DNA from: Flavobacteriales bacterium
Lineage (GTDB): Bacteria > Bacteroidota > Bacteroidia > Flavobacteriales_F > PHOS-HE28
Direction: 5' to 3'
NCBI GenBank assembly: GCA_013360395.1
Contig: JABWBQ010000020.1
Span: 1 to 64,000 of the forward strand
Length of the DNA: 64,000 nt
Shown piece after piece: positions 46,204-52,109 of the stretch (the first letter of the stretch is position 1; each line of letters begins with the position of its first letter). The notes under the pieces are model-generated. The model was not told the DNA's origin and searched no databases. It saw nothing but the letters and a program-made list of their open reading frames with translations. Both the position numbers and the translations under genes were made by a program.

Positions 46204-46410
46204 ATGCGTCGTCCCCTCCTTTCCACCAGCCTCCTTCTGCTGCCGGGCACTGCGGCCCTGGCCACCACCTGGACCGTCGGTCCGGGCCTGTCCTACACCC
46301 TGCCCAGCCAGGTGAGCGCCTTGGTGAACGATGGGGATACGGTGGACATCCTGGCCGGCACCTACCCTTCCGACGTGGCGGCATGGACGGCAGAGCTTTC
46401 TCGCGGCTGA
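46204..46410 (+). pseudogene. Truncated 5' copy of the beta-helix gene at 50,712
   Basis: 68 residues: signal peptide, then YTLPSQVSALVNDGDTVDI and GTYPSDVAAWTA, aligning over about 60 residues with the start of the 465-residue protein at 50,712 (YTLPSQVSTLVNDGDTV, YPSDVAAWTA). Similarity stops abruptly after the shared GCGGCATGGACGGC (about 46,391) and the frame ends six codons later. The rest of the helix and the T9SS domain are absent, so it cannot be functional in the same way. Treated as a duplication remnant that still has a promoter box. Confidence 0.75.
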
Positions 46411-47746: not shown

Positions 47747-49408
47747 ATGACGAGCTCCATTCCCAGGCGTCTCAGGCGCACGTTCCTTAGAGCAGTCGCC
47801 GTAGTGCTGCCAGGGGCAGCGGTTGCGCAACTCACCGACCCCGGTTTCGAGCAGGGTGGTGCGGGCTGGGTGCTGGCCTGTCCTGAACTCACTTGGATAG
47901 CTCCTTCCACGGCGCCGCAAGGCGGGTCGATGGCCATGGCGCTCCAGGCCACATCCACCGACTATCCGTACTGCCCTCCGGTGGATCCGCTGGGTGGCTG
48001 GACGCCAGCTCCCAACTTCTACCAGCCGCTGCCGCAGGTGGTGGCCGGCGATGTGGTGCGGTTCAAGTTCCTGGCGCGGCTGGAGGAGGGTGTTCCGCAG
48101 CCCTCCGGCTCTGCCATCCTCCCGTACGCCATTACCGTGGATGCGGAAGGGGACATGCACTTCCCGGTCACCGACCTCACCCTTGGCGGCGGCAACCCGC
48201 TGGCCACATGGGAATCGTTCCCCGGCCAGGTCACGGTGCCCGAACTGTCCGCAGGGCACGTGTTCGCCATCGGCTTCGGTGCGCACACCTTCGGTGGCGG
48301 GAATGGCGTGGTCCACTTCGACAACGTGGCCGTGCTGGTGGAAGGCAGCGGCGCGCGCTTGAATGCGAAGGCCTGGCTGGACGGCGCGTTCGTTCCCGGC
48401 ACCAATCTCATGCGTGATGACCTGCGCGTGGCCGGCTTGATCCCCACCACGCTGCCGACCTACACCAATGCCATGATGGGCCCCAACGCCCCGGCAGGCA
48501 CCGGCATCAGCATCGAACCGGCCGTGCTGACCGTGGCCGGGAACAATGCCATCGTGGATTGGGTGTGGGTGGAGCTGCACTTCGGCACGCCGGGCTTCAC
48601 GAACGCATCCTCGGGATTCGAGACGGTGGCAAAGCGTTACGCCCTGATCCAGCGCGATGGCGACATCGTGGACCTCGACGGAAGCTCATCGGTGCCGCTG
48701 CCCATCAAAGCAGGCAATTGCCGGGTGGTGGTGCGGCACAAGAACCACCTCGGTGTGATGAGCGCGGAGCCGCTGGGCCTGAATGCCACCGCCACGCTCT
48801 TCGACGCGCGAGCCGCGAGCACGCCGCTCTTCGCCCTGGCTGCGCCACACACCGGTCCCGCGCGCAAGACGGTAGGGAGCACGCGCACGTTGTGGGCCGG
48901 CGATGCGTGGACCTTGAACGCGCCGCATGGTGTGCTGTACACCGGGCAAGGCAACGACCGTGACGCCATCCTCATCGCCATTGGCGGCAACACGCCCACG
49001 AACACCTTGAGCGGGCAATACCGGAAGGAGGACGTGAACATGGATGGCGTGGTGAAATACACCGGCTCGAACAACGACCGACGGTGCGCTACGAACAAGT
49101 ACCCGGCCCCTAGACCCATGACCGCGATGATCAAGACCACTATCTCTCTCCGCGCTGGCCATTGCATGCACCGTGGAAGCGCAGCTCATCAACCCCAACT
49201 TCGAGGACGGCCTTTGGGGTTGGACATCGCCCTGCGGCGATCAGGCGGAACTGAGCACGGACGTGCCCACGCACGGCGGCGCATACAGCCTGCGGATCAG
49301 GGCACGCAATACGACAAGCACACCGTGCGTCATGGTCGAAGACCCGGACGCGCCCCTGCTGCCCGACATCTTCGCATACCAGCCGCTGCCCATGGCCGTG
49401 GCGGGTGA
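47747..49408 (+). CDS. Secreted paralog 2, C-terminus frameshifted
   Basis: 553-residue open frame. Signal peptide (to about 27), QLTDPGFEQGGAGW, then the same module order as paralog 1 (LMRDDLRVAGLIP, NNAIVDWVWVELH, ALIQRDGDIVDLDG, EDVNMDGVVKYTG). After NNDR at 49,080 the frame is shifted: the following bases would read TVRYEQVPGP-stop (TAG at 49,111-49,113) in the frame expected from the family. Compared with paralog 3, 40 nt are missing at this point. The actual frame runs 98 codons further, across the start of paralog 3, giving a low-complexity Arg/His-rich tail that is surely not native. Confidence 0.75.
   Translation: MTSSIPRRLRRTFLRAVAVVLPGAAVAQLTDPGFEQGGAGWVLACPELTWIAPSTAPQGGSMAMALQATSTDYPYCPPVDPLGGWTPAPNFYQPLPQVVAGDVVRFKFLARLEEGVPQPSGSAILPYAITVDAEGDMHFPVTDLTLGGGNPLATWESFPGQVTVPELSAGHVFAIGFGAHTFGGGNGVVHFDNVAVLVEGSGARLNAKAWLDGAFVPGTNLMRDDLRVAGLIPTTLPTYTNAMMGPNAPAGTGISIEPAVLTVAGNNAIVDWVWVELHFGTPGFTNASSGFETVAKRYALIQRDGDIVDLDGSSSVPLPIKAGNCRVVVRHKNHLGVMSAEPLGLNATATLFDARAASTPLFALAAPHTGPARKTVGSTRTLWAGDAWTLNAPHGVLYTGQGNDRDAILIAIGGNTPTNTLSGQYRKEDVNMDGVVKYTGSNNDRRCATNKYPAPRPMTAMIKTTISLRAGHCMHRGSAAHQPQLRGRPLGLDIALRRSGGTEHGRAHARRRIQPADQGTQYDKHTVRHGRRPGRAPAARHLRIPAAAHGRGG
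48981..49080 (+). repeat. 100-bp perfect direct repeat, copy 2
   Basis: Second copy of the 47,613 repeat. Its right end coincides exactly with the frameshift point of paralog 2 (49,080). Confidence 0.95.
49143..49150 (+). repeat. (TC)4 dinucleotide tract in the signal-peptide region
   Basis: Four TC units lie between the start codon region and the rest of paralog 3. The present repeat number puts them out of frame by two bases; five units would restore the frame. Confidence 0.6.
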
Positions 49409-50438
49409 TGTGGTCACCCTCACGGTAACCGCCAGGATGGAGGTGGCCGTGCCGGACCAATGGGGCTACGGGATCCGAGGGGACTTCATCGCGATCCTTT
49501 CGGATAGCTCGCTCACGGCGCTGCCGGGTGGACAACACGGGTTTCCCGCGCAAACGACGTGGAACAGTGGGACTGGCAGTTTCACCGTGCCTCCGCTGCC
49601 CGCGGGGGCTGTGCTCGGTGTGGCCCTCAGCGGCCATATGTTCGGCCTTGGAGAGGGTTATGCGCTGTTCGACAACGTGATGACCTCCATCACCGGCAGC
49701 GGTGCCGCGCTCAACGCCAGGGTGTGGCTGGGTGGCCCCTACGTGCCGGCACAGAACCTTATGCGCGATGATCTGCGCGCGGGTGGATACCTCCCCTCCT
49801 CCGATCCCTTTCCGCTCAACCCCCTCCCCGATGTGCTCCCGCCAGGCGCGTTGTCCGCCACCGGACCCAATGCGATCGTGGATTGGCTGCGCATCGAGCT
49901 GCGGCACACCATCCCGGGCGTCGGCTGGCTCATCCGCGTGAACGGATCGCTTCAGCGCGACGGCGACATCGTTGCGCTCGACGGCGTCTCGCCACTCAGC
50001 TTCCCAGTGAAGGCCGGCAACTACCTGCTGGTCGTGAGGTACCGCAACCACCTATCCATCATGACGCAACAGGCGGTGTCCATCTCAACCGCATCGCCCC
50101 TCGTTGATCTGCGCTCCACCGCCACGGCGCTGCACACACTGCCAGCGCCGAACACCGACCTTCCCGCGAAGGTGGTGGGCAACCAACAGTTCATGTGGCC
50201 GGGCAATGTCGCTTACGACCTGGAGGTTGCTTATGCTGGGCTCGGGAACGACCGGGACCCTATCCTGGGGGCTGTCGGCGGCTCCGTGCCGACGAACACG
50301 ATCACCGGATACCAAGAAACGGACGTGAACCTGGATGGCGTGGTGAAGTACACCGGCTCTGACAACGACCGCGACATCATCCTGCAGACCGTAGGAAGCT
50401 CCGTGCCTACGACGGTACGCCATGTACAGGTGCCTTGA
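49173..50438 (+). CDS. Secreted paralog 3, intact C-terminus, signal peptide out of frame
   Basis: 421 residues from a GTG that codes for the last residues before the mature protein (VEAQLINPNFEDGLWGW). Modules: N-terminal sandwich, LMRDDLRAGGYLP, GPNAIVDWLRIELR, SLQRDGDIVALDG, and a complete C-terminus with two NDRDxIL repeats around ETDVNLDGVVKYTG, ending VRHVQVP. The true start is probably ATG 49,118 or 49,127 in another frame; adding one TC unit to the (TC)4 tract at 49,143-49,150 would join MIKTTIS to LSALAIACTVEAQ and restore a normal signal peptide. Confidence 0.78.
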   Translation: MEAQLINPNFEDGLWGWTSPCGDQAELSTDVPTHGGAYSLRIRARNTTSTPCVMVEDPDAPLLPDIFAYQPLPMAVAGDVVTLTVTARMEVAVPDQWGYGIRGDFIAILSDSSLTALPGGQHGFPAQTTWNSGTGSFTVPPLPAGAVLGVALSGHMFGLGEGYALFDNVMTSITGSGAALNARVWLGGPYVPAQNLMRDDLRAGGYLPSSDPFPLNPLPDVLPPGALSATGPNAIVDWLRIELRHTIPGVGWLIRVNGSLQRDGDIVALDGVSPLSFPVKAGNYLLVVRYRNHLSIMTQQAVSISTASPLVDLRSTATALHTLPAPNTDLPAKVVGNQQFMWPGNVAYDLEVAYAGLGNDRDPILGAVGGSVPTNTITGYQETDVNLDGVVKYTGSDNDRDIILQTVGSSVPTTVRHVQVP

Positions 50439-50711: not shown

Positions 50712-52109
50712 ATGAAGCGCATTCTTCTCTGTGTCACGCTGATGACGACATCCAGTGCCTTCGCGTTCTCGTGGCAGGTAGGCCCCGGTGAGCTGTACAC
50801 CCTGCCGAGCCAAGTCTCCACGCTGGTGAACGATGGCGATACCGTGAACATCGCAGCGGGCGTGTACCCTTCCGACGTGGCGGCATGGACGGCCAACGAC
50901 CTGGTGTTGCGCGGGGTGGGCGGCTTTGCGCACCTGGAGAGCAACGGCCTCAGCTGGGGCGGCAAGGCCATCTGGGTGATCCAGGGCGACAACTGCACCG
51001 TGGAATGGATCGAGTTCAGCGAATGCCAGGTGCCCGATCACAACGGCGCGGGTATCCGGTTGGAAGGACTCAACCTCACGGTGCGGCATTGCTGGTTCCA
51101 CCACAACGAGAACGGGATCCTCTGCGGGGCGTACCACCCCAGCACCGTGCGCATCGAGTACACGGAGTTCGGCCATCATGGTTACGGCGATGGCTACTCG
51201 CACAACCTCTACATCGGCAACATCGATTCGCTCATCTTCCGCTTCAACTACAGCCACCATGCCGATGTGGGCCACGAGCTGAAGAGCCGCGCCTGGGTGA
51301 ACGTGATCGAATACAACCGCTTCAGCAACGAGGCGGACGGCACCGCGAGCCGCGAGATCGACCTGCCCAACGGCGGACAGGCCTACCTGATCGGCAACGT
51401 GATCCAGCAGGGGCCGCAGTCGCAGAACAGCAACCTGGTCGGGTTCGGCATGGAGGGGCTGAGCAACCCCGGCCCGCACGAGCTGTACGCGGTGAACAAC
51501 ACCCTGGTGAACGAGAAGCCCAACGGCAGTTTCTTCCAGATGCCGGCGGCGGCCTATTTCAAGGCGTACAGCAACATCCTGGCCGGCGGCGGGTCCTTCA
51601 TGAGCAGCTGGCCCACCACGGTGGACACGCTGGCCAACCTGCGCAGCACCAGCATCGCGGCGCTGGACTTCCTGGACCCGGCGACCCTCGACCTCCACCT
51701 CGGGCCGGGTTCGCCGGCGGACAACACGGGCCAACCCGCCGGGCTGGCGAACAGCGGCTACCCGCTGGTGGCCTGGCACGAGTACGTCCATCCGGCCGCG
51801 GGCACGGTGCGCTGCCAGCAGGCCACGCTGGACGCGGGTGCCTTCGAGTCGTGCATCACCGGCACCGGCGATGCGGCCCCTCCCGCCACCCTGTGGATCG
51901 CCCCCAATCCGGCCAGGGACCACATCATGCTGGTGGGCGAGCTCCCTGGGTCCGTCCGCGTGCGGGTCGCCGATGTCACCGGTCGTGTGGTCGGTCCGTT
52001 CGACCCGGGTACCGCCCGGATCGATGTTTCCATGCTCGCCCCGGGCCCTTGCGTGCTGCTGGTGGACGAGGGAGGAACGCCGCGGCGTGCGGTGTTCGTC
52101 AAAATGTAG
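50712..52109 (+). CDS. Right-handed beta-helix protein with T9SS sorting domain
   Basis: 465 residues. Signal peptide (about 1-18), then beta-helix coils rich in Asn/His/Gly (VRHCWFHHNENGILCG, HNLYIGNIDSLIFRFNYSHH, NVIEYNRFSNEADGTASREI, IGNVIQQGP) that resemble pectate-lyase/NosD-type proteins. The last ~75 residues are a T9SS type A domain (WIAPNPARDHIMLVG, VRVADVTGRVVGPF, SMLAPGPCVLLV). Probably secreted and surface-attached; polysaccharide binding or lysis is possible, but no catalytic residues can be assigned. A truncated paralog lies at 46,204. Confidence 0.87.
   Translation: MKRILLCVTLMTTSSAFAFSWQVGPGELYTLPSQVSTLVNDGDTVNIAAGVYPSDVAAWTANDLVLRGVGGFAHLESNGLSWGGKAIWVIQGDNCTVEWIEFSECQVPDHNGAGIRLEGLNLTVRHCWFHHNENGILCGAYHPSTVRIEYTEFGHHGYGDGYSHNLYIGNIDSLIFRFNYSHHADVGHELKSRAWVNVIEYNRFSNEADGTASREIDLPNGGQAYLIGNVIQQGPQSQNSNLVGFGMEGLSNPGPHELYAVNNTLVNEKPNGSFFQMPAAAYFKAYSNILAGGGSFMSSWPTTVDTLANLRSTSIAALDFLDPATLDLHLGPGSPADNTGQPAGLANSGYPLVAWHEYVHPAAGTVRCQQATLDAGAFESCITGTGDAAPPATLWIAPNPARDHIMLVGELPGSVRVRVADVTGRVVGPFDPGTARIDVSMLAPGPCVLLVDEGGTPRRAVFVKM

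Follow-up and report, generated by a model that had tools for sequence, protein, structure and literature searches.

We report that P3, the third of three tandem genes in a Flavobacteriales genome, carries a signal peptide split between two reading frames. Its start codons and its signal core lie in separate frames, all 14 homologues compared keep the two in one frame, the (TC)4 tract between them is of a length expected by chance, and P1 and P2 just upstream bear linked defects. Our preferred reading, held at a little under even confidence, is that P3, one copy in a small tandem array of genes for exported surface proteins, lost its frame recently through ordinary mutation and not through a tuned reversible switch. 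Considered on its own and without P3, the comparison across the genus suggests that many exported surface proteins are probably under slipped-strand switches in the region coding for the signal peptide.

Results

A tandem array of exported proteins with a split signal peptide

The window, by which we mean the whole stretch of 64,000 nucleotides analyzed here, is part of one contig (C115) of a 3.68-Mb, 139-contig draft genome (G000), and was compared with 44 other genomes of the genus, giving a set of 45. P1, P2 and P3 encode proteins that are 39-46% identical (Table 1). None has a Pfam or NCBIfam match above cut-off or a recognised T9SS C-terminal sorting domain at E 1; P3 reaches 20.8 bits against CBM_4_9, below the curated cut-off of 25.9, and is not counted as a member of that family. 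The C-termini of all three proteins carry two repeat units of the form YTGxxNDRDxIL...DVNxDGVVK, whose DxNxDG motif presumably resembles dockerin-like calcium loops, and the majority of the 39 DNA matches of P3 in its own genome fall on this repeat part. The array is flanked by two copies of a beta-helix gene, one truncated and one full, and in another genome (G041, L024) a beta-helix gene lies upstream of a single P-type gene. The window has no Rfam match at the gathering threshold.

Table 1. Positions of the array genes and of the elements of the P3 start region in the window
Feature	Position	Strand	Remarks
Beta-helix gene, 5' fragment	46204..46410	+	Truncated, ending ...TWTVGPGLSYTLPSQVSALVNDGDTVDILAGTYPSDVAAWTAELSRG and a stop; first ~65 aa of the 50,712 gene, matched by eye
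P1	46469..47737	+	In-frame signal; C-terminal tail without 48 bp found in relatives
P2	47747..49113	+	In-frame signal; tail without 40 bp, which puts the conserved ending and TAG (49,111-49,113) out of frame
Block identical to the P1 tail	48981..49080	+	100 bp; its end is the exact start of both tail deletions
P3 start codons and n-region	49118..49145	+	Frame of ATG 49,118/49,127
P3 hydrophobic core and cleavage region	49131..49184	+	SRPLSLSALAIACTVEAQ; mature-protein frame, without usable in-frame start
(TC)4 tract	49143..49150	+	TCTCTCTC
P3 open frame from GTG	49173..50438	+	421 aa; N-terminus weakly CBM_4_9-like; C-terminus of two repeat units
Beta-helix protein	50712..52109	+	Intact; T9SS tail match weak, below cut-off

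The two ATG codons of P3 open a frame that translates as MTAMIKTTISLRAGHCMHRGS. Upstream, the mature-protein frame is closed off by a TGA at 49,128-49,130; it translates as SRPLSLSALAIACTVEAQLINPN and holds no ATG, GTG or TTG ahead of the GTG at 49,173, its first usable start. The n-region is thus in one frame and the h-region with the cleavage site in another, as the initial annotation had described, and a frame reading of 49,118-49,180 bears out its statement that P3 has no in-frame signal. The (TC)4 tract lies between the two parts, placed so that the gain or loss of a unit would shift the frame of the exported protein. From 49,131 into the h-region neither frame has a stop, which leaves many positions where the frame could have changed; the tract is one candidate site among them.

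That P3 ought to carry a signal peptide, another claim of the initial annotation, agrees with its relatives. In 14 of 14 homologues, reading upstream from the conserved (A/G)Q start gave an ATG in the same frame as a hydrophobic stretch that runs up to [A/G]Q, indicating that the signal of P3 is broken. The 14 are P1, P2 and 12 loci from 10 further genomes of the genus (two each in G008 and G041, and one each in G011, G012, G020, G023, G028, G038, G039 and G040). Relatives that use the GTG start and do without a signal, which had been raised as a possible objection, were not seen among them. The break is probably recent, because 421 codons of the mature frame remain open and are scored as coding sequence.

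P3 has no true orthologue among the 45 genomes of the genus, since its best full-length protein match in the 44 others is 45% identical and its N-terminal matches reach 39% identity or less. It was not found after P2 in either G008, where P2 is followed by a gene whose start resembles that of the window's 59,740 gene and then by the contig end, or G038, whose contig ends 146 bp past P2. The contigs holding the best relatives of P3 are mostly labelled Flavobacteriales.

The (TC)4 tract is of chance length

One (TC)4 occurs in the window against 0.80 expected from dinucleotide shuffles, at least one being present in 51 of 100, and the whole genome holds 11; the tract is not longer than chance, as the repeat of a contingency gene should be. 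Another (TC)4 falls within an intact, in-frame signal peptide (MKKTLLSLPLLVGSVAVVAQ, G000:C133:31,850), which indicates that Leu/Ser codons naturally yield short CT runs in signal peptides. The genome has no CT tract of six or more units, and in the own-genome stretches that we read (449,771 bases, or 425,771 without the 24,000 Ns) AG/CT tracts reach four units at most, and do so four times. A scan of these stretches for split signals, Ns included, returned P3 and one unconvincing candidate beside 115 intact signal-like frames (shadow frames counted); it was not exhaustive, having missed the poly-G case described below. The initial annotation had proposed the tract as a slipped-strand switch. 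With four units at chance frequency, a second (TC)4 in an intact signal, no CT tract of at least six units in the genome and no orthologue showing length variation, the proposal is not upheld for P3, and the alternatives it had itself named, a simple mutation or a sequencing error, are the likelier readings.

Linked defects in the tails of P1 and P2

The initial annotation did not mention that P2 is also frame-shifted, at about 49,080 and some 60 bp upstream of the break in P3. The tails of P1 and P2 share a 100-bp block that is identical in both, and directly past it, in comparison with G038 and G008, P1 is missing 48 bp without a change of frame and P2 is missing 40 bp with one, the two deletions beginning at the same base. 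Through its 40-bp loss P2 misses its own stop and is read into the start region of P3; the mechanical ORF extends to 49,408. In G038 and G008 both copies have intact tails, and the P2 orthologues are 93% and 86% identical, respectively. The last repeat is shared between the two copies there as well (longest identical run, 49 bp in G038 and 26 bp in G008), suggesting that exchange between copies is natural. Given the linked tail defects, the truncated beta-helix copy at the head of the array and the lack of a P3 orthologue, decay of the tandem array or misassembly would fit the P1-P3 locus better than a switch.

Two frameshift detectors were used to gauge assembly quality. The first recovered 1 of 60 simulated losses, which makes its genome-wide count uninformative; the second recovered 80 of 80, with 65 passing its filter, but lacked specificity, giving 72 filtered candidates in the real sequence, most of which we regard as gene junctions.

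Repeat tracts in signal peptides across the genus

CT tracts of at least six units are present in 17 of the 45 genomes. Most of the 30 sites listed directly precede a conserved element (see below), and five lie in regions coding for signal peptides: G016:C10 (10 units), G016:C19 (21), G016:C85 (14), G030:C30 (13) and G033:C1 (20). All five encode LSLSLS before cores such as TAAWLLTAASVMAQ, and none of these genes has its nearest well-placed ATG in frame with the protein. At G016:C85 (L270) an internal deletion fuses the signal to the extreme C-terminus, with 53 aa left after the tract. Eight CT-tract loci gave no Rfam match at the gathering threshold. The protein at G016:C10 contains DUF7948 and SBBP above cut-off, its match to the T9SS tail model being below (18.5 versus 23), and belongs to a family with 47 matches at E 1e-30 in 26 of the 45 genomes; the window's own genome has no match to this family at the same threshold.

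We examined 46 of the 47 family genes, leaving out G017:C49 near a contig start, and 43 have a recognisable mature start. Within the 110 nt before it, 21 of the 43 carry a repeat by the criteria of our script. By our own count from the script's table, 19 carry a strong frame-changing repeat, defined as a single base at least 8 times, a two-base unit at least 5 times or a non-triplet unit of at least 4 bases in at least 3 copies. These comprise CT/TC runs of 10, 13, 20 and 21 units; C runs of 9, 9, 10 and 22; the four-base units AAGA x9, GAAG x8 and GATC x3; the seven-base units GCAGAAC x5.4 and x4.6, CAGAACG x3.4, GCATACC x4.4, ACGCCCA x3.9 and AAAACGC x3.1; and AGAACCGC x4 and CACCGCAA x3.4. 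The background for such repeats, taken from the window's genome and hence from a genome other than those of the family, is 14 in 425,771 non-N bases, or about 0.004 per 110 nt. Of the 43 genes, the script called 22 ON, 18 OFF and 3 unclear, and a repeat was present in 5, 13 and 3 of these, respectively; three of the repeat-less OFF calls (L285, L305, L315) have poor anchors, and the near-identical pairs G001/G002 and G032/G034 are not independent. G001:C167 and G002:C1:2,659,146, two near-identical genes that both belong to the three without an anchor, differ in a C run (C9 versus C11), one being in frame and the other out; the two share a further frame change downstream, so the gene may be dead.

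A poly-G tract in a SprB-repeat gene of the same genome

The window's genome has 15 runs of at least nine C/G (20 overlapping rows). At G000:C90:11,697 (L344, L352), an ATG and G10 are followed by an out-of-frame signal, SPLILALLFAIPGGISGQ, in a gene for a protein with two SprB-repeat stretches; the SprB repeat is named after a gliding adhesin. Related loci have G9 in frame (G041:C41, G041:C9, G005:C25 and G005:C13), G10 out of frame (G041:C24) or G8 out of frame (G028:C229 and G008:C143). Eight loci in 5 genomes thus have a run of G8-G10 directly after the ATG, a conserved position ahead of the signal core, and the length differences change the frame (G9 in frame at four loci, G8 or G10 out at four); these are differences between species or paralogues and not within one population. 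In the three G041 copies the reading frame ends at about 88 aa, so these may be non-functional. Even so, the tract has held its position across loci with 73-96% identity at lengths of 8, 9 and 10, and it looks as a candidate switch would be expected to look.

A second run, G11 at G000:C69:6,504-6,514 (L339), lies about 55 nt upstream of the start of an exported-looking protein, MNIHRLVVLVGLLLAGELGAQ, and is a possible promoter-spacing switch. By eye, the other 13 are mostly in or near frames without an adjoining signal-like start. The broader idea behind the initial annotation, switching by repeats within the signal peptide, thus gains ground for other surface proteins of the genus, through their long tracts, and for one poly-G tract in the same genome, but not for P3 itself.

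Discussion

Origin of the break in P3

In the reading that we prefer, the array would have been reshaped by exchange between copies and by small deletions, and a small insertion or deletion in or near (TC)4 would have put the start of P3 and its signal core out of register, leaving an unexported product or no product. We infer a real change rather than an assembly error, located at the TC tract and not subject to regular reversal. Several facts speak against such decay. The observations would also suit misassembly of the repeated region; independent mutations would not usually give two deletions that start at the same base, precisely where an identical block stops; and in a genus with repeat tracts in its signal peptides, the layout of P3 (start, CT-rich LSLS stretch, core, AQ) looks like a miniature of them. 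An error of assembly or consensus is a substantial possibility, if short of probable: the repeats of P1, P2 and P3 may have been collapsed or misjoined, giving rise to the tail deletions and the P3 break while the genes are intact in the living cell. The common starting base of the two losses at the end of the 100-bp block, the distance of at most about 70 bp between the two frame breaks and the 139-contig state of the draft all point this way. The TC tract, however, lies outside the block shared by P1 and P2 and is presumably too short to upset ordinary base calling, and sharing of tails between copies is seen in other species too.

It is unlikely that P3 represents the OFF state of a reversible slipped-strand switch in which gain or loss of a TC unit would restore export, although five genes from three species of the genus have signal peptides whose LSLSLS cores are encoded by (CT)10-21, the frame offset of P3 is of the kind that a dinucleotide change could cause, and Helicobacter pylori oipA is a known example of switching by a CT tract in the signal sequence, the tract having 5-9 units in one survey (PMC6327388). 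Its four units at chance frequency argue otherwise, as do the absence of CT tracts of at least six units from the genome and of at least five from 425,771 non-N bases, the other (TC)4 that stands in frame, and the ordinary in-frame signals of the P3 homologues. We consider it very improbable that P3 is functional as it stands, translated from GTG 49,173 or by programmed frameshifting. That GTG is the first usable start of the long frame, but it lies inside the cleavage region and would yield a protein without a signal, unlike 14 of 14 homologues, and conservation of a shift site cannot be shown for a gene without an orthologue; we rated both variants low for their lack of conservation and the signals in all homologues.

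Relation to known and candidate switches

P3 resembles H. pylori oipA in its arrangement, since in both a surface-protein gene has CT/TC dinucleotides separating its start codon from its signal core, and the frame would decide export. It differs in having 4 units, against 5-9 that vary between strains in the survey, which also gives fewer than 5 in Asian strains (PMC6327388), and the proteins are unrelated and from different phyla. Read by analogy, (TC)4 could be the frozen end of an oipA-like range. The DUF7948/SBBP-family genes are closer, being of the same genus, with a start, a repeat, an LSLS-rich or other core and AQ, and many are likewise out of frame in the assemblies; their tracts, however, are long (CT 10-21, C 9-22, 4- to 8-mers x3-9) and their protein is unrelated to P3. 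The SprB-repeat gene at C90 shares with P3 its genome, a tract between start and signal core, and a signal out of frame, but has a homopolymer of 10 that is conserved in position and measures 8-10 in relatives, whereas P3 has a short dinucleotide tract without relatives.

It seems doubtful that P3 is a short-tract relic, or the beginning, of a genus-wide slipped-strand system in signal peptides, one that would use poly-G/C, CT or 4- to 14-base units depending on the species. The sequences appear to support such a system much better than they support the membership of P3 in it. P3 alone, being a broken or misread copy, is of little import. The genus matters more, because the comparison points there to slipped-strand control of secretion at the signal peptide, including that of a SprB-repeat protein, in Flavobacteriales that are known mainly through metagenome assemblies. 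Most discussion of phase variation in Bacteroidota concerns DNA inversion, and a literature search of titles and abstract starts, with subscription journals mostly outside its coverage, found no paper on repeat-based signal-peptide switching in this phylum.

A conserved element beside long CT tracts

Long CT tracts of 8-36 units are directly adjoined by a conserved element of about 130 bp at L185:2993-11853 (G002) and other loci. Its other strand resembles a promoter (TACCTTTG) together with a short RNA and a hairpin, with a T-rich run after the hairpin, and the hairpin arms seem by eye to covary. Rfam gave no match to the element at the gathering threshold. In many cases the element is followed by an ORF of about 336-370 aa, and the one such protein tested has a T9SS tail above cut-off. 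A query with the element, including part of the CT tract, found DNA matches in 30 of the 45 genomes, some of them to the tract only. Between near-identical flanks, tract length differs at two pairs of loci: 17 units at G001:C20 versus 14 at G002:C1:166,379, and 13 at G001:C94 versus 14 at G002:C1:2,240,324.
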